A stretch of 35,704 nucleotides of DNA, from IMG/VR virus record IMGVR_UViG_3300025141_000344, positions 1 through 35,704 of that record; one strand, 5' to 3'. Source of the stretch: a virus. Shown here one piece after another: positions 1,554 through 27,585 of this stretch (positions are counted from its first letter, which is position 1; each line of letters opens with the position of its first letter). The translations under genes were made by a program, and so were the position numbers. The notes below the pieces were generated by a model. It did not search any database. It worked only from the letters and a program-made list of their open reading frames with translations, and had not been told where the DNA came from.

Positions 1554-2558
1554 CTACACCCTGCCCTCGTCCACAAACGAGGTTTCGTTCATCGCACCCG
1601 CCTCGTTGAGCGCGGATGCGCGGGACCCGACAATGCAGATCGCTGTCCCAAGGATCTCCAAAGTCACCGGCTCGAACTCAACGTCCTCGGCGTCGCGGAT
1701 CTTCAGGAACGTCCTGATCGACCGGTTGATGTAGTCCGGGTCGGGAATGAACTGGATTGGATCCGCTGCCTTCGACGACTCGCCGAAGAGCGAGAGGAAG
1801 GCGACGAGTCCCGGGTCGACCATCATCGCTTCGCAGAGCAGGTCGAGCGCAGCCTGCTCGTTCCCGACCGCAGCCATCGCGTGGACGTAGCTCGCCCAAG
1901 CTGACTCCAGTGTCCACCACCAGTATTCACCGAAGTCGTTCTTCTCGGTCAGCGCGACAGCGTCGTCGAGCATCTCGTCGCAGGCGTGATACGGATAGAT
2001 GTCGTTGTAGCAGAAGTCGAACTCCTCGCCTTCGAGTTCGAGGAAGTCTCCGTGGCGCAGTTCGATCTTGTCGAAGTAGTCACGTTTTGAATGGAGCGCG
2101 GCGAACAGATTGTGCGTATGCATATCGTTATCGTAGACGACCACACTGTCGACGCTCTCCTTCTCTGCCGCTCGCAGCGCGAAGTATCCCAGACCCAGAC
2201 CACCGGCGAGAACCCGACCGTTGGCTTTCCGAATCGGAAGGTAGTGACTCTGCATCTCGAACCAAGTCAGAGACATCCACGGTGCGAAGTCGTCTGTGCT
2301 CGCTCCCAGTCTGGGGTCCGTTCCCCTGACCTGCTCCTCGGTCAACTTCTTGAGGAGCGTCGGCACCGCAACGGATCCGTCTCTCTGTGAGTAGCTGAAG
2401 TATTCGGCGAAGAGCGGATGCTTCGGTCGTCGGTTGAGCAGGAGAACTTTGCCGTCTTCGCTCTGGACCCCCTTGCCATCCTTCACGTCGATCAGTCCGT
2501 AGAAGTCGATCTCCTGCTCCGTGTATGCGTCGTCGAACGGGTTAAGCGTGCTCGCCAT
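1554..2558 (-). CDS. Class I SAM-dependent methyltransferase-like protein
   Basis: 334 residues. The central part has a Rossmann-type signature: VLAGGLGLGYFAL (116-128, glycine-rich SAM loop), VVVYDND (139-145, acidic end of strand 2), HGDFLEL (169-175) and FDFCYNDIYPY (180-190). The last takes the place of the catalytic-loop motif IV but lacks a classic DPPY/NPPY. This order fits a class I methyltransferase or the related spermidine-synthase fold; the substrate is unknown. The N-terminal 110 residues and C-terminal 130 residues are not recognised. ATG 2558 has AGGAGG six bases upstream, inside the 3' end of the preceding gene (17-base overlap). It is the last gene of the leftward block before the convergent hairpin. 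DNA, protein or metabolite modification are all possible. Confidence 0.62.
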   Translation of the reverse strand: MASTLNPFDDAYTEQEIDFYGLIDVKDGKGVQSEDGKVLLLNRRPKHPLFAEYFSYSQRDGSVAVPTLLKKLTEEQVRGTDPRLGASTDDFAPWMSLTWFEMQSHYLPIRKANGRVLAGGLGLGYFALRAAEKESVDSVVVYDNDMHTHNLFAALHSKRDYFDKIELRHGDFLELEGEEFDFCYNDIYPYHACDEMLDDAVALTEKNDFGEYWWWTLESAWASYVHAMAAVGNEQAALDLLCEAMMVDPGLVAFLSLFGESSKAADPIQFIPDPDYINRSIRTFLKIRDAEDVEFEPVTLEILGTAICIVGSRASALNEAGAMNETSFVDEGRV

Positions 2559-3113: not shown

Positions 3114-5018
3114 TTAGTCCTGACCAAGCCAGTCGGTGAACATCTCCTGAATCACCGGGACGTCGTTGCCGTCCCGAAGGTCGTCGAGGTTCAACGACCA
3201 AGCTGCGTCGGCGAACCCATCGTAGGGTCGCTCGTCCTCGCTGCCGTAGTAGGTCGAGCCGGTCTTGATCAGCACGCCCAGTGTGAACCCCTCAAGCTCG
3301 CGCATCTTCGCTTTGAACTGCTCGCCCATCTCGTTGTTGCGAGGATACTCACCGTCGCTGATGAAGACGACGTCGCTCTTCTCCATCCCCGGATTCTCGA
3401 ACGCCTTCAGGCAGGCACCCAGTGCGAGTTCGTAGTCCGTTCCGCCCCGTTGGAAGATGGTGCTGAACTTCATAAACTCAAGCTCCTCGCCCGGGCGACC
3501 GTCGAACTGCCTCACGTCCAGACCGTCGTTCTCTCCCCAACCGCTGCTGAAGTGGATGTAGATGAACGGCTGATTCCGGGCTGCTGCTTCACGGTAGAGC
3601 GCGAGGGCAACAGCCTTCGCCCAGATGATTGCCTTGTGCTTCGTGTTCGCGTTCTTCCGGTAGTAGCTGCCCTGCGTGTAGGAGTGAACGAGCGAGTATG
3701 AACCGGAGTCCATCGACCCGGAGGAGTCGACGCAGCAGATCACCGGACCACGTCCGCAGTCGTCCTTCAGTTCCTTCTTGTAGCTGAGTGCCTTGTGATC
3801 GGCGACGTCCATCAGCAATTGCTTCTTCGCGATGGGATGCGCGAACTTCGCAAGCTCACCGGGAAGGAGACGGTGCAGGTCGCCAGAGGGTTCCACGTCG
3901 ACGATCTGTCCGACTGGGGCCGTCGTATCGTCCTGCTTCGCCTTGCGCGAGATCCGCTCAATGCGACCGGCGAGTTCAGCGATCCACTTCAGTTCCTGAT
4001 TCTGCTCCAGAAGCTGCGCTGCCTCGACCTGCTCCTCATACGAGAGGTGCGTGTGCTCGCCTGCACCCTGACCGCACGAGAATGCATCCATCGCGTCTTC
4101 GAGTTCTTCGGCTTCGTTCGCGCCCTGACGCATCGCTTCGCGCACATCGGATTCGATGTCTTCACGATTCTGATCGAACGCAGCGTTCATTTTCTGCGTG
4201 GCCTCTTCCATCGCCTGCTCTAGATCAGCGACCTCGCTTGCGACTTCCTGACCGCGCTGCTCCACATCCGATTTGCTCGTGCCGTTCCCAGACTGTCCTG
4301 CGCTTCCCTGTGAACCCTCGCTGCCGTCGCCGACGTCTGATGCATCGCCGTCATCGTCTCCGTTCTCTCCTTCGGGTCCAGACTGCGATAACTCAGACGA
4401 ACCATCCGAATCGCCCTCTCCTGATTCAGGCTCGCTGCCTGCATCGCCGCTCTGTGATCCCTCACCGTTCTCGCCCTCGCCATCTTCACCGTCATCAGTC
4501 GTGTCATCGTCGTTCTCCTTTTCCTGATCGTCGAGATCCTGCCAGAGCTTGCGCAGGGATTCGAGTTCGTCCTGCTTCTTGTCGAGTTCGTCGCCGATCT
4601 CGTTCTGGTCGCGAATCGCGTCGAGCATCTCTTCGGGCAACTGCTCGACGACGTCGTTCAGCTTGCACACACCCATCAGGGAGTTGACTCGGTTCCGAAT
4701 CGTGAAGCCGCGCAGCCGGTTGAACTCCTCGGTGCCCTTCGCCGTTTCGATCACTCGCTTGTGCCAGAGCGCACGCTGATCGATCTCGTCGTCATCCTTC
4801 ACGATGGGGTTGCCCTGAAACAGGTAGTTGTATCCGTCGACCTGCAGATCCTGAAAACCGGGAACGAACTCCTCGCCGAAGCGTGCTGCCTTCTTCACGT
4901 CGGAGGAGGCGTCGCGGTCCTTCAGGAACTCGCGACGGTTCCACTCGCTCGACTCCACTGAGTAGTTCCCGTCCGTCGCGATGTGCCGCATCCGCTTGAG
5001 GTCGTCTCTGGTGTTCAT
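3114..5018 (-). CDS. VWA-domain protein with acidic linker (ViaA/CobT/CoxE-like partner of AAA+ ATPase)
   Basis: 634 residues. The N-terminal 150 residues are helical. A long low-complexity acidic Asp/Glu/Gly/Ser linker follows (about 165-250), then a helical part (270-400) with ELKWIAELAGRIERI. The C-terminal von Willebrand A domain has a complete MIDAS: CVDSSGSM (D431, S433, S435), RGGTDYELAL (T527) and VVFISDGEYP (D555). VWA proteins with an acidic linker next to a MoxR AAA+ ATPase are known in chelatases (CobT, BchD/ChlD) and in the ViaA and CoxE groups, where the VWA protein acts as an adaptor for the ATPase. The start is ATG 5018, with AGGAGAG seven bases upstream; a longer frame to 5051 lacks a ribosome site. 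It has its own promoter (5065-5092). The substrate of the pair is unknown. Confidence 0.82.
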   Translation of the reverse strand: MNTRDDLKRMRHIATDGNYSVESSEWNRREFLKDRDASSDVKKAARFGEEFVPGFQDLQVDGYNYLFQGNPIVKDDDEIDQRALWHKRVIETAKGTEEFNRLRGFTIRNRVNSLMGVCKLNDVVEQLPEEMLDAIRDQNEIGDELDKKQDELESLRKLWQDLDDQEKENDDDTTDDGEDGEGENGEGSQSGDAGSEPESGEGDSDGSSELSQSGPEGENGDDDGDASDVGDGSEGSQGSAGQSGNGTSKSDVEQRGQEVASEVADLEQAMEEATQKMNAAFDQNREDIESDVREAMRQGANEAEELEDAMDAFSCGQGAGEHTHLSYEEQVEAAQLLEQNQELKWIAELAGRIERISRKAKQDDTTAPVGQIVDVEPSGDLHRLLPGELAKFAHPIAKKQLLMDVADHKALSYKKELKDDCGRGPVICCVDSSGSMDSGSYSLVHSYTQGSYYRKNANTKHKAIIWAKAVALALYREAAARNQPFIYIHFSSGWGENDGLDVRQFDGRPGEELEFMKFSTIFQRGGTDYELALGACLKAFENPGMEKSDVVFISDGEYPRNNEMGEQFKAKMRELEGFTLGVLIKTGSTYYGSEDERPYDGFADAAWSLNLDDLRDGNDVPVIQEMFTDWLGQD

Positions 5019-5064
5019 CGTGCTCTCCTGTGAACCGGTTAACTGCGTCACTGCCTACGTGTAT

Positions 5065-5092
5065 AGTATACTGGTATACGAAGGATCCGCAA
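5065..5092 (-). promoter_or_regulatory. Leftward sigma70-like promoter of the VWA operon
   Basis: Minus strand: TTGCGG (5092-5087), 16-base spacer, TATACT (5070-5065). An A7 tract ends three bases upstream of the -35, like an UP element. Four bases after the -10 comes ACGTAGG and then GTGACG, a start-region module shared with the promoters at 6502-6530 and 8415-8443. The predicted start is about 40 bases before ATG 5018. Confidence 0.7.
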
Positions 5093-5102
5093 GCGTTTTT
5101 TT

Positions 5103-5195
5103 GGGGGCCGGTTTCGCTCTCCCCCAGAGCTACTCCCGGCCCCCTTGCCCCCTCTGCTCCCCTTATCAGAGGGGGCACTGATCCCCCCGGATCAG
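5103..5195 (-). other. Triple GC-hairpin cluster after the AAA+ gene
   Basis: Three perfect inverted repeats lie in the AAA+/VWA gap. CTGATCC-4-GGATCAG (5178-5195) overlaps the AAA+ stop codon. A 10-bp stem follows (5147-5156 with 5167-5176, 10-base loop), then a 9-bp stem GGGGGCCGG/CCGGCCCCC (5103-5111 with 5136-5144). No U-tract follows on the minus strand. They probably reduce read-through or protect the AAA+ mRNA 3' end before the new promoter at 5065-5092. Confidence 0.6.
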
Positions 5196-6433
5196 CTAGA
5201 GAGTGAGTCCGTGTCGATGTTCATAATCTCGGACAGGATCTTCCGCTTGTATCCCATCACCTGACCGTAGGCTCGCTTGATGCGCTTGCCCGTCTTCGAC
5301 TGGTCGGAGGTCTTGTCGAGCTTCTCCTTCAGCGACTCAAGGATGTTTTCGATCTCTGCGCGGGGATCAGAAGTTGCCTGAATCCGTGCGTCGCTCGCCT
5401 TGACTCCCTGATCGACGAGGTTCTTATACTGCTCTCGTGCGACGCGCAACTGCTGCTTCGCGGAGTCGACCATCGACGCGACCTCTTCGAGCATCGGGTT
5501 GGCGACGCGCAGGATCATCTTGCGAACCGGAGCGATCTCGGCAGGGTCGTTCCAGAGGACGTGCTGCAGGATCTGAAGGTCTTCGGCCTCGACCGTCATC
5601 CGACCGGCGAGCAGTGCCTCTGCCTTCACGATGTCGATGCAGAAGTTCGCTTTGCGGTTCGTGAACTGGATCGACTGCGAGTCGAACTCTTTGCGGAGTG
5701 CCCAGAGCACTTCGAGGATGGAGTCGGGAACCTCGACCTCGTCGCAGGCTGCGTGAGCGGCGTCGATCTCTTCGTCCGTGATCAACTCGAAACCTTCGGG
5801 AAGCTCGAAGCGATTCCCCTCGGAACGGTTGCGGAGCATATCGAGGAAGTTGTCCTTCTCCTGCATCTGGTCGACCCAGAACTTGAGAGCGAGACGGTCG
5901 GCGTGAGCTTCGGCACCGTCCTCGTGCATCTCGTTCGAGGAGCCGACGAGCATCGCGAGCGGGACGTTGATGTCGTCCGGGCCGTTTCGGAACGAACGCT
6001 GCTCGTCCGTGATGTCGAGGATCGCGTTCTGGTTCATCGGACCCATCTTGTTGATCTCGTCGAGGTGAGCCATCCGTGCGGTCGGCAGGAACCCGTCGAC
6101 GTTGCGACGGTAGACACCGGACTCGAACGCCTTCATATCGAACCCGCCCAGAATCTCGTCGGACGGCAGCGTCTTCGACATCAGCTTGCGGAAGTAGGAC
6201 CGGGGGTCGTCCGTGAAGAACTTGAAGAAGCGGACGAACGTGTTCGCTGCGAGCGACTTCGCGGTGCCCGGAGGTCCGACCTGCAGGACGTGCTGACGTG
6301 CGGTGAACCCGACTGCCAGACCGTGGATCCGGTCTTCGCTCTCGCGGACGAAGCCACGGATGGCGGACTCAGCCTGCGTGATCTTCGCGATGAAGCTCGC
6401 TACGAGGTCGACGTTGTTCTTTGTCTTGGTCAT
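5192..6433 (-). CDS. MoxR/RavA-type AAA+ ATPase
   Basis: 413 residues. Walker A is GPPGTAKS (53-60), preceded by HVLQV; GPPGTAKS is typical of RavA-like MoxR ATPases. Walker B is AHLDEINK (D125, E126), followed by the family-typical ...NAILDITDEQRSFRNG. Sensor 1 is GSSNEM (N167), the likely arginine finger is in HADRLALKF (R180), and the C-terminal lid has FTNRKANFCIDIVKAEALLA. MoxR ATPases remodel or load cofactors into client complexes with a VWA partner, which here is the next gene. A C-terminal coiled region (about 310-370) may bind that partner. ATG 6433 has AGGAGAG six bases upstream, in a 16-base leader shared with the VWA gene. CobS-like chelatase subunits are a less likely alternative because of the RavA-like motif spelling. 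Client unknown. Confidence 0.88.
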   Translation of the reverse strand: MTKTKNNVDLVASFIAKITQAESAIRGFVRESEDRIHGLAVGFTARQHVLQVGPPGTAKSLAANTFVRFFKFFTDDPRSYFRKLMSKTLPSDEILGGFDMKAFESGVYRRNVDGFLPTARMAHLDEINKMGPMNQNAILDITDEQRSFRNGPDDINVPLAMLVGSSNEMHEDGAEAHADRLALKFWVDQMQEKDNFLDMLRNRSEGNRFELPEGFELITDEEIDAAHAACDEVEVPDSILEVLWALRKEFDSQSIQFTNRKANFCIDIVKAEALLAGRMTVEAEDLQILQHVLWNDPAEIAPVRKMILRVANPMLEEVASMVDSAKQQLRVAREQYKNLVDQGVKASDARIQATSDPRAEIENILESLKEKLDKTSDQSKTGKRIKRAYGQVMGYKRKILSEIMNIDTDSLSS

Positions 6434-6501
6434 CTGAATCTCTCCTGTGAACCGGGGGGTTGATGTAGGATGTGCTGCTCGTCACCACATCCTGCGTAGA
6501 C

Positions 6502-6530
6502 AATATATAGGTAGACGGTATGTGTGTCAA
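6502..6530 (-). promoter_or_regulatory. Leftward sigma70-like promoter of the AAA+ gene
   Basis: Minus strand: TTGACA (6530-6525), 17-base spacer, TATATT (6507-6502), a near-consensus sigma70 promoter. An A6 tract lies just upstream of the -35. After four bases the start region reads ACGCAGGATGTGGTGACG, matching the module at the two sister promoters. The leader to ATG 6433 is about 60 bases long. Confidence 0.82.
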
Positions 6531-6541
6531 ATCTTTTTTGG

Positions 6542-6635
6542 GATGCGGGAGCGGGGGTCTGACTGCCCGTCTTCCGGGTCTTACTGCCCCTGCTTCCCGA
6601 AGGGTCACCGGAGTCCCGGCTCCCGCACCCGCATC
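6542..6635 (-). other. Long-range hairpin with two alternative pairings
   Basis: The arm at 6542-6552 (GATGCGGGAGC on the plus strand) can pair either with 6619-6627 (9 bp) or with 6628-6635 (8 bp); the two pairings exclude each other. Between them are smaller stems such as CCCG/CGGG. It fills most of the gap between the 378-residue gene and the promoter at 6502-6530. No U-tract follows on the minus strand. Possible attenuator or 3' stabiliser. Confidence 0.45.
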
Positions 6636-6654
6636 TTCTCGACGCTGCGCAGGA

Positions 6655-7791
6655 TTAGAAAGGTGCGTTCAGCGTCTTCTTCTTCGGCTCGGCCTTCGCC
6701 GTCTTCTTCACTGCAGCCTGCTTCGCTTCCTGCAGCTTCGCCTCGACCGACTTCTTCTCGTCGCGTGCTCGCTTCGCTTCGGCCTTCTCCGCCTCACGCT
6801 TCTCGGCACGCTCGACCGCACGCTGCTTCTTGTTCTCTGCTGCCTGCTCCTTGCGCTGCTCGACGACCTTCTTCACCGGCGTGTAGTTCTTGTTCGAGCC
6901 GGTCAGGATGTTGTTCAGCCGCTTCTCGACTTTCGAGATCCCCTCGTGAATGTCCTCTGCCTTGAAGTTCAGGAGATCCTCATACACCTTCGCCTTGTCG
7001 CGCAGGTCGGCGAATCGCTTCAGTCGAGTGTCGAGCTTGAACTGCTTGATCTCGCCGCCCTCGGCACGAGCCTCGTCGAGCAGCGTGTCGATCTCGCGGT
7101 TGATCTTGTGGAACTCGACGAGCAGGTCGTCCTCGACGAAACCGGCTGCGTTGTTCCGCCACGTCGTCGTGTCGAAGACCGGCATCGCGTAGACACTCGA
7201 CCCGCACTTCTCGAACACGGTCTGCAGAGCTTCGAGTTCATCCTGATGCGTGACCGGGACGAATGTCAGGCCACCACCCTGCTTCCGGGCGACGACGCTC
7301 TGGTAGCGATTCAACTCGTATCCCAGATACGCCTGCAGCACCTCTCGCTTGACGTGCTTCACGTAGTCGCTCATCCACGTCGTGAGCTTCATCTTCAGTC
7401 GGCTGTCGTCGCCCTCGACCGTGACCTCGCCGCTCTCTTTGTTGAAGACCGTCCACGCTGTCGCGGAGTATCCCAGAGCCTTCTCGTCGACGATCTCGGA
7501 TTCGATGGTCACCTGATGTCGGATGACACTGGGACCGCTCGCGCTCTTCACCTTGCGAACGAACGTCCGGTAGTCGGAGATGCGGAAGGCGTTCACTGCG
7601 TGATGGTATGCCTTCGACGGTGTCGGCTGCGGAATGAAGTCGGCGTTCAGGATGCCGGTGTCGGCGACGTGCTGCTTCAGGTCGGCGTAGGTCACTGCCT
7701 CGTCGCTGATCTCGCTCCATACGAGGAACCCGATCTTCGGGATGTTGTCAGCTTCGGTCGGGTTCAGGATGCCGGTCAGTTGCGTTGTCAT
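6655..7791 (-). CDS. 378-residue companion of the MoxR-VWA pair, unknown function
   Basis: The protein begins MTTQLTGILNPTEADNIPKI. Residues about 20-280 look like a folded alpha/beta domain; the last 75 residues are a Lys/Ala/Glu-rich helix (KKQRAVERAEKREAEKAEAK) expected to be a coiled coil or nucleic-acid-binding tail. It lies directly upstream of the AAA+ gene and I recall similar proteins accompanying MoxR-VWA pairs in other phages, but cannot verify this. It could be the client or a recruiting subunit. ATG 7791 has AGAGGACGAG upstream. It is likely co-transcribed with the two small genes upstream from the promoter at 8415-8443. No catalytic motif is recognised. Confidence 0.68.
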   Translation of the reverse strand: MTTQLTGILNPTEADNIPKIGFLVWSEISDEAVTYADLKQHVADTGILNADFIPQPTPSKAYHHAVNAFRISDYRTFVRKVKSASGPSVIRHQVTIESEIVDEKALGYSATAWTVFNKESGEVTVEGDDSRLKMKLTTWMSDYVKHVKREVLQAYLGYELNRYQSVVARKQGGGLTFVPVTHQDELEALQTVFEKCGSSVYAMPVFDTTTWRNNAAGFVEDDLLVEFHKINREIDTLLDEARAEGGEIKQFKLDTRLKRFADLRDKAKVYEDLLNFKAEDIHEGISKVEKRLNNILTGSNKNYTPVKKVVEQRKEQAAENKKQRAVERAEKREAEKAEAKRARDEKKSVEAKLQEAKQAAVKKTAKAEPKKKTLNAPF

Positions 7792-9305: not shown

Positions 9306-9546
9306 CCTTCACCCTCTTCGACGCCTCTGCCATCTTGCGTCGCGTCTTCAGGAGAGTCCTCGCGTTCGTCGTGTCGACTCGCCCCCGAATCAGTTCGGCT
9401 CGCTCCTTGCGCAGCCTCTTCAGGTAGTCCCGCTGAGAGCGAGTCAGCGAGTCCGGGCTGACGCCCATCGGGTTACTCGGTGACCGCTTCAGCAGTTCGT
9501 CGATCATCGTCTTCAGGTCGCGGATGTCGTCGTCGATGGTGCTCAC
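9298..9546 (-). CDS. Small basic helical protein
   Basis: 82 residues, GTG start at 9546 overlapping the stop of the Gam-like gene as GTGA, so translation is probably coupled. The sequence is helical with a very basic C-terminal half (LKRLRKERAELIRGR, LLKTRRKMAEASKRVKG), suggesting nucleic-acid or protein binding. A short N-terminal acidic segment (DDDIRDLKTMIDELLK) may form a coiled coil. Function unknown. Confidence 0.64.
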   Translation of the reverse strand: MSTIDDDIRDLKTMIDELLKRSPSNPMGVSPDSLTRSQRDYLKRLRKERAELIRGRVDTTNARTLLKTRRKMAEASKRVKGA

Positions 9547-10073
9547 GAAACCTCCACGAGGAACTTGTCATCGTCTCTCACGATGTCGCAGCCGGGAGGG
9601 ATCTCTCCGGTCCTCTTGACCATGTCGAGGATCATCCTCTTGTCAGGCGACCTCTTCATCTCTGTCCGTATCAGGATCGTGCCCCCGACCCTGTCCTCGT
9701 TCGCGAGCAGGAAGGCGTCGACGTCTTCGATGACGACCTTCTCTGGCATCTTCCTGAACCTGATCGTGCCGTTGATCAGGCGCAGCGACTTCCGGTCGAG
9801 CCGGTTCAGGAACGCTTCGAGTCCGTTCGCGTGGAACCTCTCCCGGTCGTTCACATACTTCAACTGGTGACGTTCCCACTCGTCCGCCTTGTTGCGCATC
9901 GTCTGCGCGTGGGACCGGATCCTGTCTTCCTCCGACCTCCAGTGGGCGATAGCACGTAGCGAACGCTCGGCCAGTTCCTGATCCTCGACGTCGAGTTCGC
10001 GACCTTCGGCAATCGCCGTCTCGAACTCAATGTCGTTCGCTGTGTCCTGTATCTCTTCATCTCGACGGGTCAT
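9543..10073 (-). CDS. Gam-like host-nuclease inhibitor or Gp157-like protein
   Basis: 176 residues: a long helical coiled coil (about 10-100, many Glu/Arg) followed by LNRLDRKSLRLINGTIRFRK (about 88-107), then EKVVIEDVDAFLLA and a small C-terminal beta part. A helical hairpin followed by a GTIRFRK..P..V.I.D.DA segment is the layout of Mu Gam and also of siphovirus Gp157. Mu Gam binds DNA ends and blocks host exonucleases. The recT-like gene in the same operon fits a recombination module. ATG 10073 has AAAGGA seven bases upstream. The choice between Gam and Gp157 cannot be settled by eye. Confidence 0.6.
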   Translation of the reverse strand: MTRRDEEIQDTANDIEFETAIAEGRELDVEDQELAERSLRAIAHWRSEEDRIRSHAQTMRNKADEWERHQLKYVNDRERFHANGLEAFLNRLDRKSLRLINGTIRFRKMPEKVVIEDVDAFLLANEDRVGGTILIRTEMKRSPDKRMILDMVKRTGEIPPGCDIVRDDDKFLVEVS

Positions 10074-10971: not shown

Positions 10972-12372
10972 TCACTCTCCGCCCAGAACCTTACCACTGA
11001 GCCACGAGAACGACTCGCGCACCGCAGCAGCGGGAGCGTCGTGATACGGAAAATCAGACGTCGCTTGCAACGGGATAGACTTGTCGAGCTTGTGCCAGTG
11101 CGTCCGAATCTTCATCCGCATCAGCGTCGCCTGTCCTGCGATCAGAGCGAGCGCATCGATGTTCGCCATCAGCGATTCCCCGATGACGGTGTCGTCTTCC
11201 TTCTCGTCCAACATCATCTGCGTCTCCTCAACCTTCTCCTCCGTTGAGACAGTTCGTCCGCCCGGATCGCCTTCGCCATCACCGGCGTCGCCTTCATCAG
11301 GCTCCCCTTCGGAATCAGCATCCTCTTCAGTCGAGTCACCCTCCACGACAGGTTCACTCTCAGCAGGCGCAGCTTCTGACGTATCACCCCCGGCGTCTGA
11401 CGCATCGTCTCCTCCGATCTGAGCCTTCATCTCGTTGAACGTGGCGAGGTAGTCGGACTTCGCGATGTCGCCCTGAATGTAGCTGAGCGTGACCTCACAG
11501 AAGTCTGCGTCACCTCCGACCTCTTCCATCAACTGGGCGCAGTTCACATCGTTCCACCGCTTGCGCTTCGCTTCCCACTCCGCGACCTTCTTCTCCAGTG
11601 CCGACAGACTGGCAGCATCTTTCCAATCCTGCGCAGCATCGAAAACCTGCGGCTCGATGATCCCGTCTGTCTTCGCCCAGTTCATCAGGTCTTCAAACTC
11701 CTGCTGCAGCGCGACAGTCCGGTCGTCACCTTCGGGTGCGACAGGCGCGGTGTCGATCTTCGCATCAGCGAAGACAGCCTTCGAGACGTCGAGGTCTCCC
11801 TCGTCATTCGTCGGCGCACCGACTTCGTCTGGCGTGTAGATCCGAAGACCTCCGATGGCATCCGGGCAATACCACTTGAACCCGTTCGACATCGCACGAG
11901 CGAACAGCATGTTCCGGGGGAACTTCCTCCAGTTCGAGCCGTCCTTCATCGACACGTTCGCAGCCTTCGCGTCGTCCATGTCGAAGTCGCTGATGCCGAT
12001 GCTCACGAACTCCGAATCCCCGTCAGCGATGCGACCGAAGAATTCGATCTCGCACCTCTGCTTCGTGAACTCGTTGATCTTGTAGTCGTAGTCCGGGTGC
12101 TCCTTCACACACTGGGCCATCAGGTTCGCACCGGCAGTCACCGACACGCGACCTCCTGTTTCGATGACGTGGATCCCGGTCATCGCTGCCATCGGCGCGA
12201 TGCCCATCTCCATCCCGGCCATCACCTTCACGCACGCACGCTCGGCTGTCTTCGCATCAGGGAACATCCCCGACGCTGCCAGTGTGTGTGCGAGCTTGTA
12301 TGCTCCCTCGAACCTCTCCATCGATACGTTGAAGAGTTCGCCTCCCTGATGCTTCACTACTGCTGTTGACAT
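10972..12372 (-). CDS. RecT-like single-strand annealing recombinase with acidic C-terminal region
   Basis: 466 residues from ATG 12372 (MSTAVVKHQGGELFNVSMER). The first 210 residues resemble the phage RecT group: GMFPDAKTAERACVKVMAGM, GIAPMAAMTGIHVIETGGR, VTAGANLMAQ and FPRNMLFARAMSNGFKWYCPD. Such proteins anneal single strands during phage recombination and end repair. Residues about 215-345 are helical, about 345-405 are a strongly acidic Glu/Asp/Gly/Ser stretch, and a folded-looking tail follows (IGESLMANIDALALIAGQAT). AGGAG lies ten bases before the ATG; the frame opens back to a GTG at 12456 but that part overlaps a structured RNA and looks non-coding. The extra C-terminal half is unusual, since typical RecT proteins have about 270-330 residues. 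The Gam-like gene downstream fits the same pathway. Confidence 0.72.
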   Translation of the reverse strand: MSTAVVKHQGGELFNVSMERFEGAYKLAHTLAASGMFPDAKTAERACVKVMAGMEMGIAPMAAMTGIHVIETGGRVSVTAGANLMAQCVKEHPDYDYKINEFTKQRCEIEFFGRIADGDSEFVSIGISDFDMDDAKAANVSMKDGSNWRKFPRNMLFARAMSNGFKWYCPDAIGGLRIYTPDEVGAPTNDEGDLDVSKAVFADAKIDTAPVAPEGDDRTVALQQEFEDLMNWAKTDGIIEPQVFDAAQDWKDAASLSALEKKVAEWEAKRKRWNDVNCAQLMEEVGGDADFCEVTLSYIQGDIAKSDYLATFNEMKAQIGGDDASDAGGDTSEAAPAESEPVVEGDSTEEDADSEGEPDEGDAGDGEGDPGGRTVSTEEKVEETQMMLDEKEDDTVIGESLMANIDALALIAGQATLMRMKIRTHWHKLDKSIPLQATSDFPYHDAPAAAVRESFSWLSGKVLGGE

Positions 12373-12396
12373 TGATCCGGTTCTCCTGAAGTAAAG

Positions 12397-12459
12397 GGGG
12401 TGCGACGCCTGCCATAAGAACCCGCAGGTCCGGTCCCGGTCGGGACGACGCCGCACCCC
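12397..12459 (-). ncRNA. Three-way-junction RNA in the leader of the recT-like gene
   Basis: The 93-base gap before the recT-like ATG holds a compact structure: P1 8 bp (12397-12404 with 12452-12459), P2 5 bp (12408-12412 with 12424-12428, 11-base loop) and P3 5 bp (12433-12437 with 12442-12446, 4-base loop). All stems are perfect Watson-Crick. It ends ten bases before the ribosome site, so a cis-acting regulator is likely. It is too short (63 nt) and has the wrong loops for a tRNA. Confidence 0.52.
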
Positions 12460-14860: not shown

Positions 14861-15503
14861 TCGACTCCGACATCTTGATCGCGTCGCCGACTACCGTGGT
14901 CAGGGCTACAGCATCTCGGAGATCGCCGCTCTCACTCAGAGGTCGCGTGGTCAGATCTGCAAAGACCTCAAGGCGTGCGATGCTTTCTACAAGAAGGCGA
15001 TTGCCGACAAGCGTGAGGTGTTCCACCGCAACGCACTAGTCGGTCACGAACACATTCTGAAAGAGGCGTGGCGTTCGTTTCGTGCAAGCAAGCAACGGGT
15101 CACAGAGACGACGACCACGGATCCGAACACCGGCGAGGAGGTCGTCTCTGTCTCCGTTGAAGACGACGTCCTTCCGGGCGACCCTCGCTTTCTGCAAACT
15201 GGTCTACAGGCGTGGAAGGGGCTGCGCGACCTGATGGGTCTGGACGAACCGACGAAGACTGAGAACTCGACCACGGTGACCGTCGTGCGTGAAGACGACG
15301 AACTCAGCGACGACGACCTCAAGGAGATCATCAGTGGAAACTACACAGAGCAGGCGAATGGCCTACGCCTCGGAAGCGGCACGCTTGTCCCTTTCTCGAC
15401 GCTTGGCGCGAACGGAACTGATCCCGTTCGTCGAGTGGACGATGCCGAACTACGAAACGGCACTGCACCATCGGATGATCGCGCAGCATCTGGAGAAGGT
15501 TGA
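14829..15503 (+). CDS. terS: Terminase small subunit (predicted)
   Basis: 224 residues. An N-terminal helix-turn-helix-like region YRGQGYSISEIAALTQRSRG (about 21-41) would bind the packaging site, followed by helices (KACDAFYKKAIADKREVFHR) and a charged C-terminal tail (VVREDDELSDDDLKEII). Assignment rests on this layout and on its position immediately before the large terminase. The last 170 bases overlap terL in another frame; the tail from about NYTEQANG is probably disordered. The HTH plus helical oligomerisation part fits the small-terminase group, though sequence identity in this group is always low. Confidence 0.72.
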   Translation: MAKRKTHNPTDRLRHLDRVADYRGQGYSISEIAALTQRSRGQICKDLKACDAFYKKAIADKREVFHRNALVGHEHILKEAWRSFRASKQRVTETTTTDPNTGEEVVSVSVEDDVLPGDPRFLQTGLQAWKGLRDLMGLDEPTKTENSTTVTVVREDDELSDDDLKEIISGNYTEQANGLRLGSGTLVPFSTLGANGTDPVRRVDDAELRNGTAPSDDRAASGEG

Positions 15504-16854
15504 ACGTGGAGAGATCACAAGGCTCATCATTGAAGCACCTCCGCGACACGGCAAGAGCGAGCTATGCTCGAAGAGGTTCCCGGCGTGGTTCATCGGGCGC
15601 AACCCGGAGAAGCAGATCATATGTGCTTCTTACTCAGGTGACCTTGCCTCTGGCTTCGGACGAGATGTTCGGAACATTGTGGATAGCCAGAGGTATCGCG
15701 CCCTCTTCCCTTCCGTCTCACTTGCAGCAGACTCACAGGCGGCTTCTCGTTGGCACACTGAGCACGGAGGCGTTTACGTCTCAAGCGGCGTTGGCGGAAC
15801 TATCGGCGGACGGGGTGCCGACCTCTTCGTCATCGACGACCCTATCCGTGGAAGAGAGGAGGCTGATTCTGAAACCATCAGAGACAAGCTGTGGGACTGG
15901 TATCGTTCCGTAGTCTACACTCGCCAGATGTTCGACGACCCGCGCATCGTTGTGATGACGACGCGATGGCACGAGGACGACCTCGTCGGTCGTCTCCTGT
16001 CTCTGGCTGACGACGGTGGTGATCAGTGGACACGACTGCAGCTCCCGGCGATCAAGCAGCACGACAACAGGCTCTACGCACTGTGGCCTGAGAAGTTTCC
16101 GCTCGACCGACTCGAACGGATCAAGACGAACGTCGGGCCTCGCGAGTGGCGAGCACTCTACCAGCAGGAGCCGACGCCAGATGAAGGTGCCTTCTTTCAG
16201 AAGAGTTGGTTCCGTCCGTATCACCGCGCTGATGCTCCCTCCAAAGAGCGGCTCGCGATTTTTGGTAGTAGCGACTGGGCACTCACCGCAGATGGAGGTG
16301 ACTACACAGTTCACTGCGTCTTTGGCGTCGATGATAAGAACGACGTCTGGCTCCTCGACTGGTATCGCGGTCAAGTCGAAGCACTTGAAGGGATGGAGCA
16401 GTGGCTCCTGATGGTCGCACGTTGGGAGCCGTTGCGTTGGTTCGACGAGTCAATCTCAATCACGAAGGCTGTCGGATCCTTGCGGCAGCGGATGAAGAGT
16501 GAGCACGGAATCAATGTCACCGAAGAACTCATTGTCCCTTCGCACGACAAGGCTACGCGTGCCCGTTCGATACAAGCCAGAGCGCAACAAGGTGCTGTTC
16601 ATATCCCTTTCTACGAACCGTGGAGCAGCGACCTTCTCGGCGAGCTTCTTAGCTTCCCGACTGGGAAGAACGACGACCAAGTTGACACCCTATCCCTTAT
16701 CGGGCAGGGACTTGATCTCCTCCACGGCAAGATGACGCCGAGGCAGACGCAGCCTCTGGGACTCGGCGCACCGGAGCAGATCCTGAAGTTGCTTGAGGGG
16801 CCGTCTAAGGGACGATATGGAGACAAGGGGTCCAAGCTCCCTCGCCCAGTGTAA
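15334..16854 (+). CDS. terL: Terminase large subunit, ATPase and nuclease
   Basis: 506 residues from GTG 15334, chosen because AAGGAG lies seven bases upstream; an ATG 24 bases later is an alternative. ATPase: APPRHGKS (68-75, Walker A), LFVIDDP (164-170, Walker B), VVMTTRWHEDD (206-216, coupling motif). Nuclease: FGSSDWAL (D314) and KNDDQVDTLSLI (near 465-475) supply the acidic residues. It pumps phage DNA into the prohead and cuts it. It overlaps the small-subunit gene by 170 bases, longer than usual. The length and motif order are standard; this is the clearest packaging gene in the window. Confidence 0.93.
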   Translation: METTQSRRMAYASEAARLSLSRRLARTELIPFVEWTMPNYETALHHRMIAQHLEKVERGEITRLIIEAPPRHGKSELCSKRFPAWFIGRNPEKQIICASYSGDLASGFGRDVRNIVDSQRYRALFPSVSLAADSQAASRWHTEHGGVYVSSGVGGTIGGRGADLFVIDDPIRGREEADSETIRDKLWDWYRSVVYTRQMFDDPRIVVMTTRWHEDDLVGRLLSLADDGGDQWTRLQLPAIKQHDNRLYALWPEKFPLDRLERIKTNVGPREWRALYQQEPTPDEGAFFQKSWFRPYHRADAPSKERLAIFGSSDWALTADGGDYTVHCVFGVDDKNDVWLLDWYRGQVEALEGMEQWLLMVARWEPLRWFDESISITKAVGSLRQRMKSEHGINVTEELIVPSHDKATRARSIQARAQQGAVHIPFYEPWSSDLLGELLSFPTGKNDDQVDTLSLIGQGLDLLHGKMTPRQTQPLGLGAPEQILKLLEGPSKGRYGDKGSKLPRPV

Positions 16855-21408: not shown

Positions 21409-22395
21409 ATGGCACCAACATCTCAGACAAGAAACTGGGATCTCGCTTGGACGACGTCGATGGACGTCCATCGCAAGCGGATCACCGACAACATTAACAA
21501 CCAGAACACCACGCTCGAAGTGATGCGCGGCTCTGGTCGTGTTGAAGTTGATCGCGGTGGTAGGATCATCCGCGAGGATCTTTACTACGCCAATGGCACG
21601 ATGGAGTGGATGTCCGGTCGACAGCCGGTCAGCACCGACGAGCCTGATGGCGTGACTGCCGCTTTCTACGAGACACGTTATGCGGTCGTGCCGCTCGTGA
21701 TCTCGTGGACGGAGCAGCAGGAAGCGCAGACGAAAGAGTCGGCGATGTCGCTTCTGGCGACGAAGACGATTCAGGCTCGCAACACCCTGCAGGCAGGCAT
21801 CAACGCTGCTCTCTGGGCCGCGCAGTCTGACAAGTCGATGCTCGGCTTTCAGGATCTGATCGACTCGACTCCCGCAGTCGGGACGCTCGGTGGAATCAAT
21901 CGGGCGGACGAATCGTGGTGGAGAAATATCGCTGACACGTCTTCGACGCCAAACTGGGACAACAAAACGGGTGACATCTACGACGGCTTCACAGCCTTGT
22001 CGGCGAACTACAACAATGCCAGTGATGGGAACGACGAAATCACTGACATCTTCATGGGCCTTACGCTGTATGGCGAAACCCAGAACATCCTTGAGTCGAC
22101 GGGCTATGCACGTCTGACTGCAGGCAGCGGCGGAACGTCGAAGGTCGACGCCGGTAAGCCTGCGTTCCGCAGTGCTGTGATCCACAAGGATCGTGACGTG
22201 CCTTCGGGTTCCGTCTACGGCATCAACTCGAAGTATTATAAGCTGAAAATTCAGCGCGGTGCCAACTTCGCGAAGACGGAGTTCGTGAAGGGTGATGCCG
22301 CCGGTCAGCTTGCGCGTGTCTCGTTTATGGTTGCCGGTCTGCAGCTTGTGACCAACAACCCGCGCCGGGGCTTCGTGATCACGGGCATCACCTAA
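21409..22395 (+). CDS. Major capsid protein (predicted)
   Basis: 328 residues. The start ATG 21409 has AGGAG upstream, 20 bases after the scaffold stop. It is a mixed alpha/beta protein without charged repeats: MAPTSQTRNWDLAWTTSMDV, the hydrophilic loop VSTDEPDGVTAAFYETRYAV, WTEQQEAQTKESAMSLLATK, and a C-terminal FMVAGLQLVTNNPRRGF (a common end in HK97-fold capsid proteins). Position between scaffold and decoration-like gene and size agree with a major capsid protein. A strong hairpin follows the gene (22422-22458), which may protect its mRNA. A long open frame on the other strand is a GC shadow. Confidence 0.82.
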   Translation: MAPTSQTRNWDLAWTTSMDVHRKRITDNINNQNTTLEVMRGSGRVEVDRGGRIIREDLYYANGTMEWMSGRQPVSTDEPDGVTAAFYETRYAVVPLVISWTEQQEAQTKESAMSLLATKTIQARNTLQAGINAALWAAQSDKSMLGFQDLIDSTPAVGTLGGINRADESWWRNIADTSSTPNWDNKTGDIYDGFTALSANYNNASDGNDEITDIFMGLTLYGETQNILESTGYARLTAGSGGTSKVDAGKPAFRSAVIHKDRDVPSGSVYGINSKYYKLKIQRGANFAKTEFVKGDAAGQLARVSFMVAGLQLVTNNPRRGFVITGIT

Positions 22396-24328: not shown

Positions 24329-26881
24329 ATGCCAGAAGGAATCGGATACAGCCCCCTGAACAAATTGAGTGCTGCGCAGCGTCGAAGACGTGTTGGATTG
24401 CGTTTGGATGATCTCGACCTTGAGTCGATGGTCGCAGAACCCGACGCGACAATGGTCCCTTCGGATATGAGAACCGAAGGTGCGAAGCAGCACGACGCGC
24501 AACTCGCTCAGATCGAATCTGAGAGGCGTAGAGCGCAGTTCCCGACAGCCCAGTCGATGATCCCCGGCAAGCAGATGTTCGGCCAGACGTCCAAGGAGAG
24601 CGGCGACATCGCACGTTCGATGCTCCCCTACTTCGGAGGGGCGGAGGACGCACAGGCCATCGCGCAGTCGGAGACGCCAACCGAACTCGCGATCAACACC
24701 GGACTCGGCGCACTGGGTCAGCTTGGACCCATCGGCAAGATCAGCGGTGCGGCACTCGGACCTGCAGCGTTCGCGCTCTCCCGGTTCTTCGGTCGGGCAC
24801 CCGGACAGATGGGAGCTATCCCGGCAGGCGAGGCAGCGGAGGGCGCAGCCGACCTGACTCGCGTCGGGATACCAGACGACGCAGCGAGGGGTCTGTCGCT
24901 CGGTCTGGGGCGCGAGAACGCCGGGAACTTCGCTCAGCGGATTCAGGAGCGGATGCGACGGAAGCAGACGTCAGGGACGCTCTATCGCGGCCGGAGCGAA
25001 GCAGGCGAAGAGATCTACACGGCACCGATGGAAGGCGACCTCCTGAACCTGCCGCACGGAACGGTCGAGGACGCTTACGAGCTTGCGATCCTGAACGCAC
25101 GAGCCGATGGACGCAAGTGGCCGACGAACGCAGAGATCGCAGGCTTCATCGACCTCGTCACCCGTCAGGGACGTGGCGCGAACGGCAGCGGACTTTCGGC
25201 GCAGACTCGGCGGCTCCTCGTGAAGGGATCCGACGTTCCGATCAGTCAGCAGCCCGTCCTTCGGTCTGGGCATAGCAACCTCGTCGGAAGGCAGGCACCT
25301 CTGACCGGAGATCCGAATCGTCCGGGCGGAGGGATCGACACGAGCGGACCTCGCGCACGGACGAAGGCAGGCGTGCCGAAGGGAACGACCGCGCAGGTCG
25401 GCGACCGGATGTCGATTGAGAGCATCGCGGACTTCCTCGAAGACACAATCGACAACGCAGAGGCGAAAGACCTCCAGTGGTATAGGTTCTTCAGTAAGGA
25501 TGTCGGAGATATTATCGGTAAGCAGCACACTCCAGAGTTCGGCGCAGTGTTCGCCATCCTGTCGCCGCAGTCGCCGGTCGAGACGAACCTGCGTGATGCC
25601 ATTGAGACGATGATCTGGGTCCGCGAGTATGCGGACAAGGTCGGTGCTCAGAACATCACTCGCGCAGGATTTATCAGGGACTACCGTCGCGCATTCCGCG
25701 AGGAAGGCGAAGAAGGATTCAAGGGGATGATCGGTGCGCCTCTGGCTGACAGGAAGAAGATCGGTGGACGGAAGATCGGCGAAGCGTTCTGGTCTACCGA
25801 TGGCGACCGCCTGCAGAAAGCAAAGTCACCTGACGAAGCGATCGGCAAGCTCGCCGACTTCTATCTCGAAGGCGTGATGAAGGGCGACCTGAAGACCCGC
25901 ACGTTCGCTCTCAGCGTTCACGAGAAGGAGCGGCTCGGTTCGATTGCCGGGACGGTGAACGATGTGATGATCGCGCAGTTCCTCGACATCGGAAACGTGT
26001 TCGGGTCCGAGTCGGTCAGCGCAGCGACAGGCTTTGTCTTGCCGCAGTCGGCGCAGGCGTATCGTGCAGCGCAGGCACACATCGCTCTGGCAGCGCGAGA
26101 GGTTTCGGATCGGCTCGGAAAAGAGATAACACCGGACGAAGTTCAGGCCATCGCGTGGGCAGTCATCAAGCGAGGCGAGTCGCCGCAGACAGGCGTTCCC
26201 GGTCAGCAAATCTTCCCGCCGCGAGATCCCGCGATCCTCGGTGCAGGATTCCGCGAACTGAATCCGGGAGTCACTCCGGGCACACTGGAGTCGGCGAAGA
26301 TGTTCAGCAGGAACGCCATCGACAGGTATCGCGCACTCGGCATTCAGGATCACCAGACACTGATCCCGACCGACGACGCAGGACGGATGGTCACCGAAAC
26401 TCCTCCGGGCGGATTCCCGGCAACGGCTGAGACGTTCGAGAAGTATGCGACGGACCAGACGTTCGGGGCAAACCCAGTCAGGCAACTCGGCGGAGCCGTA
26501 AAAAAAAACGCTAGTTCGCTAGAGGTGTCCGAACTGGACTCGAACGGGTTTATGCACATCACCGGGAAGTCAGGAGAACGCCAGAGCATCCGACCGACGA
26601 TGGCAGACTTCCCCGGAGAGAGGAGCAGCCCGACCAGAGGCGAGTTGTATTTCGGAGAGGTGCCAGAAGAGCATCGCGGCAAAGGACTGGGAACGGCAAT
26701 GGTTGGAGAGGCACTCGACGTTATGGTCAGGCACGGAGCGACGACGGTCGTGACATCTCCAACGTCGCAGTCAGGAGCGGGACTCATCAACAAGGCGATC
26801 AAGAACGGTTGGATCAGTAAGCCCATACGAACGTCAGAGACTGGGAAGACTGAGCACAACATCCTGAAGGGCATACGATGA
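24329..26881 (+). CDS. Large virion protein with DUF7178-like central domain and C-terminal GNAT fold
   Basis: 850 residues. Residues 1-110 are charged and helical; about 115-170 is Gly/Ala-rich and hydrophobic (INTGLGALGQLGPIGKISGA). About 361-620 holds a helical domain with QWYRFFSKDVGDIIG, VFAILSPQSPVETNLRDAIE and GRKIGEAFW; the LSPQxPxxxNLRxA motif resembles phage DUF7178-type domains (from memory). The last 115 residues (after an A9 tract at 26500-26508) carry a GNAT-type end: FGEVPEEHRGKGLGTAMVGE, with RGKGLGTAMV as the acetyl-CoA loop. As a late gene it is probably packaged or ejected; the catalytic role is inference. Alternatives are a polyvalent protein or a virion-delivered toxin-like enzyme. 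It ends in ATGA with the connector gene. Confidence 0.66.
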   Translation: MPEGIGYSPLNKLSAAQRRRRVGLRLDDLDLESMVAEPDATMVPSDMRTEGAKQHDAQLAQIESERRRAQFPTAQSMIPGKQMFGQTSKESGDIARSMLPYFGGAEDAQAIAQSETPTELAINTGLGALGQLGPIGKISGAALGPAAFALSRFFGRAPGQMGAIPAGEAAEGAADLTRVGIPDDAARGLSLGLGRENAGNFAQRIQERMRRKQTSGTLYRGRSEAGEEIYTAPMEGDLLNLPHGTVEDAYELAILNARADGRKWPTNAEIAGFIDLVTRQGRGANGSGLSAQTRRLLVKGSDVPISQQPVLRSGHSNLVGRQAPLTGDPNRPGGGIDTSGPRARTKAGVPKGTTAQVGDRMSIESIADFLEDTIDNAEAKDLQWYRFFSKDVGDIIGKQHTPEFGAVFAILSPQSPVETNLRDAIETMIWVREYADKVGAQNITRAGFIRDYRRAFREEGEEGFKGMIGAPLADRKKIGGRKIGEAFWSTDGDRLQKAKSPDEAIGKLADFYLEGVMKGDLKTRTFALSVHEKERLGSIAGTVNDVMIAQFLDIGNVFGSESVSAATGFVLPQSAQAYRAAQAHIALAAREVSDRLGKEITPDEVQAIAWAVIKRGESPQTGVPGQQIFPPRDPAILGAGFRELNPGVTPGTLESAKMFSRNAIDRYRALGIQDHQTLIPTDDAGRMVTETPPGGFPATAETFEKYATDQTFGANPVRQLGGAVKKNASSLEVSELDSNGFMHITGKSGERQSIRPTMADFPGERSSPTRGELYFGEVPEEHRGKGLGTAMVGEALDVMVRHGATTVVTSPTSQSGAGLINKAIKNGWISKPIRTSETGKTEHNILKGIR
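26500..26508 (+). other. A9 tract, possible transcriptional or ribosomal slippage site
   Basis: Nine A in a row (26500-26508) in an otherwise GC-rich gene, at the border of the DUF7178-like part and the GNAT end. In frame it reads GTA AAA AAA AAC. A one-base slip either way meets a stop at once: one extra A gives CGC TAG, one missing A gives ACG CTA GTT CGC TAG. Confidence 0.5.
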
Positions 26882-27585
26882 CACTACTCGCATCACTGCA
26901 GGAGTCGCTCGAAGATGCAGGTCTGTCGAAGTCGACGTCGGACTACCAGACCTACGCGCTGAACTTCTGGAACAGGGCGAAGGACGACCTCTCTTCGCGC
27001 AACCGGTGGACGTGGCTGCGGACGAAGAGCAGCACCTTCGACACTGTCGCCTCCCAGAGGAACTACTCGCTCGCGAGCGACGTGCTCTACCCTATCGCGT
27101 TTTATCACAAGGACGACGACTTCCGGGTTCGCGTGGTCACGCCAGAGCACACATACGAGATTGACCCGGGCGACGACACGACAGGTCGCGGTGACGCTGT
27201 CGCCATCGCGGGACTCGACTCGTCGGGGAATTGGGAGATCGAATTCTCGAACATCCCAGACACAGCCGGTGACACCTACTTCTACTCGTATCAGGCGAGG
27301 ATCGCGAACAAGACGTCAAGCAACTACAACACGTCGCTTGACTCAGAGCTCCCGCTCCACATTCAGCAGACGCTCGGCCACTACGTGACGTCGAGGCTGA
27401 TGGTCCTGTTCGGCGGACACGACGTCGACAGCGAGAAAGAGATGGAGATGTATGAGAAGCGCATCGCGATGGCAATGAAGAACCAAGCGAACCTGAAGGG
27501 CAACCAGAGGACACGGATGCTTCGTCGCAACTCAAAGATGTCACCGGCACCGACACCGGTGGTTAACTGGCCGATCTCAAGCTGA
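26878..27585 (+). CDS. Tail connector / tail tubular protein A-like
   Basis: 235 residues starting MTLLASLQESLEDAGLSKST, with the helical N-terminus, a Trp-rich RNRWTWLRTKSSTFDTVASQ segment and YSLASDVLYPIAFYHKDDDF typical of the T7 gp11-like connector of podoviruses. The sequence from DVLYPI through VRVVTPEHTYEID to ETYFYSYQARI-like strands fits the family's beta part. It forms the ring joining portal and nozzle. ATG 26878 overlaps the preceding stop (ATGA); TGATG joins it to the nozzle gene. Size is slightly larger than T7 gp11 (196 residues). Confidence 0.76.
   Translation: MTLLASLQESLEDAGLSKSTSDYQTYALNFWNRAKDDLSSRNRWTWLRTKSSTFDTVASQRNYSLASDVLYPIAFYHKDDDFRVRVVTPEHTYEIDPGDDTTGRGDAVAIAGLDSSGNWEIEFSNIPDTAGDTYFYSYQARIANKTSSNYNTSLDSELPLHIQQTLGHYVTSRLMVLFGGHDVDSEKEMEMYEKRIAMAMKNQANLKGNQRTRMLRRNSKMSPAPTPVVNWPISS

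Follow-up and report, generated by a model that had tools for sequence, protein, structure and literature searches.

A MoxR ATPase, a VWA protein and a DUF6744 protein as a very probable three-component system of phages and plasmids

The window examined here, a single IMG/VR virus record of 35,704 bases (G+C 58.9%; terminal repeats were looked for at its ends and none was found), carries three minus-strand open frames that encode a DUF6744 family protein (6655-7791, the upstream gene), a MoxR AAA+ ATPase (5192-6433) and a protein with a von Willebrand factor A (VWA) domain (3114-5018). Comparison with their relatives makes it very probable that the three are a true three-component system. Their function is a more tentative matter. 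With a probability of roughly 45%, the cassette is a remodelling machine of mobile elements, in which DUF6744 would be the fixed adaptor and which would act on the element's own replication or recombination complex. More broadly, and no less tentatively, the DUF6744-MoxR-VWA trio may be general to tailed phages (of bacteria and partly of archaea) and large plasmids, DUF6744 may be the adaptor for more than one MoxR-VWA lineage, and the complex remodelled may belong to the element's own replication or recombination or to host defence.

What is the evidence that the three genes are one unit? First, they are found together in unrelated elements. An earlier, sequence-only reading of this DNA had proposed that the three proteins work as one machine, and had named beforehand, as a possible refutation, a third gene that does not accompany the pair. 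DUF6744 does accompany MoxR-VWA in phages, plasmids and GTDB contigs. For example, Moorella phage MTATph1, the only isolate phage record in which tblastn finds all three parts, has the order DUF6744, three small genes, MoxR, VWA, which is the order seen in the window, and its DUF6744 protein (CDS0119) is 24% identical to that of the window (E 2e-11). Used as a tblastn query, the MTATph1 protein leads to 20 plasmids of Bacillota, Actinomycetota and Cyanobacteria. MoxR and VWA adjoin DUF6744 in 12 of the 13 plasmid loci examined, and in the thirteenth (Subdoligranulum) all three genes lie on one 168-kb plasmid, ~42 kb apart. A search of GTDB with DUF6744 alone gave 49 loci, several of them near-copies, and 41 of these have both MoxR and VWA within 8 kb. 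Five have one partner (short contigs or broken genes), and three contigs, which share one identical DUF6744, have neither. The search used DUF6744 alignment A6, A1 and A4 being too divergent, and the survey is thus biased to Bacillota and Actinomycetota.

Single-protein scans of viral contigs with the window's own MoxR and DUF6744 gave no matches; the window's lineage is remote, and alignments were therefore used for the viral surveys. VWA is present in 49 of the 50 non-redundant viral loci found by the MoxR alignment, and DUF6744 in 39 with a profile built without those loci, or 44 with a wider profile. The DUF6744 gene is on the same strand as MoxR-VWA in 38 of the 39, with a median gap of 134 bases. 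As a control, DUF6744 occurs in 0 of 14 well-known genomes, whereas bpMoxR occurs in 12. The counts leave out matches to RavA and ViaA in “phage” records of Salmonella, Escherichia and Campylobacter, because the DNA there is bacterial. The records of “Campylobacter phage” A11a and A18a (MG065691, MG065686; locus L005; A11a is flagged UNVERIFIED) carry enterobacterial ravA-viaA DNA, with kup- and asnA-like genes as well in A11a, and seem to contain bacterial DNA from another host. One frame, L084:6955-7803, was considered as a DUF6744-MoxR fusion; in it the beginning of DUF6744 runs on into the C-terminal portion of MoxR, which looks like an in-frame deletion or a misassembly.

Second, the three proteins have diverged together. 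Their pairwise distances across 46 non-redundant sets correlate with r of 0.83-0.90, against a permuted maximum of 0.26, which is taken to show joint inheritance rather than contact. Third, the trio is kept in two main gene orders, DUF6744-MoxR-VWA and MoxR-VWA-DUF6744, and other neighbour families recur in at most 12 loci each (setting aside one cluster antisense to the cassette); hence, the trio is not merely part of a fixed neighbourhood. That three neighbours without a joint function came together by chance is extremely improbable, being contradicted by the co-occurrence across phyla, the two gene orders and the correlated distances. The earlier proposal that the three are one unit is thus strongly supported: unrelated phages, plasmids and bacterial contigs carry them together, and they have diverged in step. 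Physical contact among them is a prediction.

The three proteins and their motifs, all on the minus strand, are as follows.

5192..6433, minus: MoxR AAA+ ATPase, RavA-like without the LARA region, 413 aa (Pfam bpMoxR 5.9e-25, AAA_lid_8 3.1e-14)
6254..6277, minus: Walker A, GPPGTAKS (residues 53-60)
6083..6148, minus: stretch between Walker A and Walker B, the expected helix-2 insert site by alignment position
6047..6070, minus: Walker B, AHLDEINK (residues 122-129)
5930..5944, minus: sensor 1, GSSNE (residues 164-168)
5882..5902, minus: Arg finger, ADRLALK (R180)
3114..5018, minus: VWA protein, 634 aa, with a helical N-terminal half, an acidic linker, a finger-like insert and a C-terminal VWA domain
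4281..4514, minus: acidic disordered linker of the VWA protein (26 D/E of 78, no K/R; predicted local distance difference test, pLDDT, <50 over most of it)
3843..3890, minus: conserved motif PSGDLHRLLPGELAKF immediately ahead of the VWA core, common to ViaA (GDDILRLLPPELATLG) in the alignment
3711..3728, minus: metal ion-dependent adhesion site (MIDAS) motif 1, DSSGSM (DxSxS, residues 431-436), invariant
3348..3449, minus: MIDAS Thr (RGGTDYE, 524-530) and Asp (ISDGE, 553-557)
6655..7791, minus: DUF6744 family protein, 378 aa, with a globular core (~1-300) and a lineage-specific Lys/Arg-rich helix
7468..7503, minus: conserved acidic hairpin loop of DUF6744 (E99, D102), between strands 89-97 and 108-117
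7252..7278, minus: DUF6744 signature motif, here KQGGGLTFVP (family consensus RPxGGVYFVP)
6694..6876, minus: Lys/Arg-rich helical tail of DUF6744, residues 306-366 (21 K/R of 61), a helix in the model

The ATPase had been described as RavA-like with intact Walker A, Walker B, sensor 1 and Arg finger motifs, and the alignment and Pfam agree; with sensor 2 (R260) and the AAA lid also in place, all the sequence elements of a MoxR AAA+ protein are there. Its best solved relative is RavA (E 7e-84) in a PDB profile search made with an alignment that held no RavA. The description of the VWA protein as having a complete MIDAS and an acidic linker is likewise borne out: the site is complete in the VWA fold (DxSxS, T and D) and invariant or almost so across 32 relatives, and the 78-residue linker is disordered in the model. 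Pfam matches to VWA_2 and VWA_CoxE are below cut-off, and the AlphaFold2 model (pLDDT 81) matches the MIDAS domain of midasin (MDN1) and the VWA domain of NorD in fold. A VWA alignment lacking RavA and ViaA did not recover the N-terminal chain of ViaA in a PDB profile search, so for the N-terminal half there is no evidence of structural likeness to ViaA. The gene most likely starts at ATG 5018, giving the 634-aa product; GTG 5051 is a less likely start than this ATG, which has AGGAGA ahead of it.

The third protein is not an orphan, since it matches Pfam DUF6744 (PF20529; 58.3 bits against a cut-off of 27, E 8.2e-16, profile positions 7-307 of 314). Although a longer frame (435 aa) runs antisense to its gene, the DUF6744 frame is the coding one because of its homology and its G+C content at third codon positions, which is like that of MoxR (0.84 and 0.83, versus 0.58 for the antisense frame). 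Its AlphaFold2 model (mean pLDDT 86.6) has an alpha/beta core, helices up to residue 296 and a long basic terminal helix. The Lys-rich coiled tail noted earlier is thus real as a helix, and it is an extension that is missing in most relatives. Of the two loop residues, E99 is acidic in 91% and D102 in 82% of 45 DUF6744 relatives. A fold search with the model found no PDB match at E <= 0.001, hence no solved relative; nominal matches to Mre11-Rad50 are noise (template modelling score ~0.1).

How might such a machine work? The VWA protein of NorQD inserts a finger into the AAA+ pore; the proposal for this system is that its VWA domain is twisted as ATP turns over and that the MIDAS is met by acidic residues on the surface of the client (PMC13036017). 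By analogy, the MoxR protein, predicted to form a hexamer, would be the ATP-driven motor, and the VWA protein would be the coupler, with its finger in the AAA+ pore and its MIDAS holding a partner. The conserved GDLHRLLPGEL stretch is the candidate finger, proposed because the VWA finger of NorQD goes into the pore, and the stretch at 6083..6148 should carry the helix-2 insert, the pore-side contact for the finger, as in NorQ (PMC13036017). DUF6744, the fixed third component, would recognise the target and probably dock on the MIDAS with its conserved acidic loop, in which E99 and D102 are candidate ligands. There is a precedent for a third partner in another viral MoxR and VWA pair, p618/p892 of Acidianus two-tailed virus, in which p387 and p892 each raise the p618 ATPase (PMC4124505). 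The 378-residue protein had been suggested to be either a client or a targeting subunit. The second fits better, because DUF6744 is the constant part across elements that otherwise have no family in common in more than 12 loci.

DUF6744 may extend beyond this type of pair. In two viral loci without bpMoxR (L027:4767-8891 and L028:7962-10391, the former with a weak AAA), DUF6744 adjoins a VWA fused to a DUF2201 metallopeptidase, which suggests that DUF6744 is common to two MoxR-VWA lineages. This VWA is of the kind in the pairs of group 2.2 jumbo phages (PMC7824862) and N4-like phages (N4 gp24/gp25, PMC4193335), which, like the one in the window, are phage-borne MoxR-VWA pairs; the window VWA differs in having no N-terminal metallopeptidase (DUF2201_N) in a Pfam scan. 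Among the genes tested around the DUF2201-type pairs of KPP21, phiFa and 121Q, none resembles DUF6744. In KPP21, a 280-aa protein (gp76, L141:2934-3776) whose gene immediately precedes that of the ATPase in the N4-like pair is not DUF6744-like but could fill the corresponding third place. Many records of N4-like and jumbo phages label the DUF2201-type VWA/metallopeptidase gene “HNH endonuclease” or “homing endonuclease” (e.g., NC_055784, NC_029017), probably a propagated misannotation.

When and where would the machine act? A large terminase (15289-16854, a match to phrog_38 at 3.6e-111), a major head protein (21409-22395, a match to phrog_9953) and an SU10-type adaptor (26878-27585) identify the window, on sequence matches, as part of a tailed phage. 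The closest terminase among isolates, that of Pseudanabaena phage Pam1 (50% identical), hints at a host without fixing it. The structural genes run rightward and the cassette leftward, in the same arm as two genes upstream of it.

10972-12456, same arm as the leftward cassette: RecT-like gene
9543-10073, same arm as the leftward cassette: Gam-like gene

This arrangement speaks for a machine active in the non-structural programme of phages, as it would be on plasmids. It also bears on the proposal that MoxR-VWA proteins are chaperones of virion assembly, made for the group 2.2 jumbo phages (PMC7824862) and inferred for Acidianus two-tailed virus (PMC4124505), an archaeal spindle virus that carries p618 and p387 in its virion, where they are tied to tail growth. 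The window does belong to a tailed phage with terminase and head genes, and those precedents are viral, but the cassette lies apart from the structural genes, on the opposite strand with RecT and Gam, and the trio is found on 12 plasmids without a terminase of PF03237 or phrog_38 (other terminase families were only partly covered). The phrog_38 terminase is present in 11 of 29 viral records and on none of the 12 plasmids, and phrog_2 gave weak partial matches only, on three plasmids. Given this position and these plasmids, in which no terminase was detected, virion assembly is improbable as the general role of the trio.

The neighbours of the trio point in another direction. Those that recur are a PD-(D/E)XK nuclease (12 loci), AAA_24 (10), dnaN (9), a DUF6094 methyltransferase (9) and a helicase (7), and a single-stranded DNA-binding protein and RadC lie beside it in a few loci. 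Mostly DNA-metabolism genes, these would suit a target in replication or recombination, or else an early action against the host. The most likely substrate to be remodelled would be a replication or recombination complex assembled on the DNA of the element itself, and RecT and Gam upstream of the cassette, with the structural genes in the opposite direction, count for this. A possible, though doubtful, alternative is that the same machine serves counter-defence or host take-over by dismantling a host immune or restriction complex recognised by DUF6744. Phages and plasmids, which share almost no other gene, are both prey of bacterial defence, the trio is in the non-structural arm of the window, and GmrSD_N and DUF6094 methyltransferase genes adjoin it in some elements. 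To judge from known anti-defence proteins, such a component should change fast, whereas DUF6744 is constant and recognisable across phyla; nor do the scanned window proteins have a PADLOC match. In nine loci, most of them from Paenibacillus (L097, L107, L115 and others) and several being copies, the VWA gene is followed immediately by a gene with a GmrSD_N domain. Of the targets listed earlier, host respiration or metal enzymes are not the preferred choice and the evidence speaks against virion assembly; host defence is kept beside DNA metabolism.

Several observations weigh against a DUF6744-dependent machine acting in replication or recombination. Co-inheritance alone can yield correlated distances. 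DUF6744 is not strictly obligatory, since 6 of the 50 viral MoxR-VWA loci are without it, some of these records maybe being fragments. In haloarchaeal virus HVTV-1, gp25 is a DUF6744 protein (fold match; profile E 4e-31), but ~15 kb separate its gene from the VWA/AAA pair of the virus, a pair of a type other than this MoxR one. Finally, phage early regions are generally rich in DNA-metabolism genes, so the neighbours do not single out replication.

How does the trio relate to known systems? RavA-ViaA of Escherichia coli and Salmonella is close to it in both proteins: RavA is the nearest solved relative of the ATPase, a window VWA profile built without ViaA recovers Salmonella ViaA at ~2e-35, and the motif GDDxxRLLPxEL is common to both VWA proteins. 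In contrast to RavA, the window ATPase (413 aa) has no LARA, the match ending near RavA 331-333; ravA-viaA has no adjoining DUF6744, and the disordered acidic linker is a feature of the window VWA. NorQ-NorD and CbbQ-CbbO, in which a MoxR hexamer has a MIDAS-bearing VWA partner, resemble the predicted make-up of the trio, and the window model matches the NorD VWA, but the window has no nitric oxide reductase or rubisco context and has DUF6744 in addition. As for CobS-CobT, no CobT family (CobT-type VWA/cobaltochelatase) was found in a Pfam scan of the window proteins. The homology to RavA and the NorD-like fold would suit a machine that inserts metal into, or matures, a respiratory or metal enzyme of the host, as for CoxD-CoxE, NorQ-NorD and RavA-ViaA; this is very improbable, as no metalloenzyme gene recurs next to the trio and such a role is hard to square with carriers as varied as the phages and plasmids of Bacillota, Actinomycetota and Cyanobacteria.

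The MoxR-vWA ternary conflict systems (VMAP, iSTAND, FtsH, beta-propeller; PMC7159879) share the three-part layout with a constant, distinctive third protein, and the window ATPase scores with bpMoxR, a Pfam family named after one of them. An element-borne defence or superinfection exclusion system of this kind is nonetheless unlikely. The third protein here is DUF6744 and the trio is phage- and plasmid-borne; no effector domain is fused to the VWA protein, which ends with its VWA domain, and the scanned window proteins gave no VMAP, STAND, FtsH, beta-propeller or PADLOC match (for a beta-propeller third component, small open frames were partly scanned).

The sequence-only reading had also given the region three dedicated promoters, of which one strong consensus site remains.

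6502..6530, minus: sigma-70-type promoter-like site TTGACA-17-TATATT ahead of moxR (11/12 matches; consensus match only)

Ahead of vwa there is solely TTGCGG-16-TATACT, spotted by eye, and a minus-strand scan ahead of the DUF6744 gene found no site. Two other window genes are of note. A 334-aa protein encoded downstream of the VWA gene (1554-2558, minus strand) matched no family and has a weak methyltransferase likeness below cut-off (E 0.076), and an 850-aa protein of the structural arm (24329-26881, plus strand) has a weak C-terminal GNAT acetyltransferase match (E 2.8e-4, barely above the Pfam cut-off).

MoxR-VWA pairs, viral ones included, are already known (PMC2147016, PMC4124505, PMC7911831, PMC7824862), as are ternary MoxR-vWA systems with other third components (PMC7159879). 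Reports of such pairs in phages go back to 2007, and gp24/gp25 of N4 belong to the core gene set of N4-like phages. No mention of DUF6744 was found in the open-licence PMC papers searched, a scope outside which most subscription journals fall; the DUF6744-MoxR-VWA trio is widespread and apparently undescribed. Brevibacillus, Alicyclobacillus, Streptomyces and Pseudanabaena plasmids and Moorella phage MTATph1 offer cultivable carriers. A constant third component, found also on plasmids, makes virion assembly a less likely general role for these phage-borne machines and supplies a bait protein.

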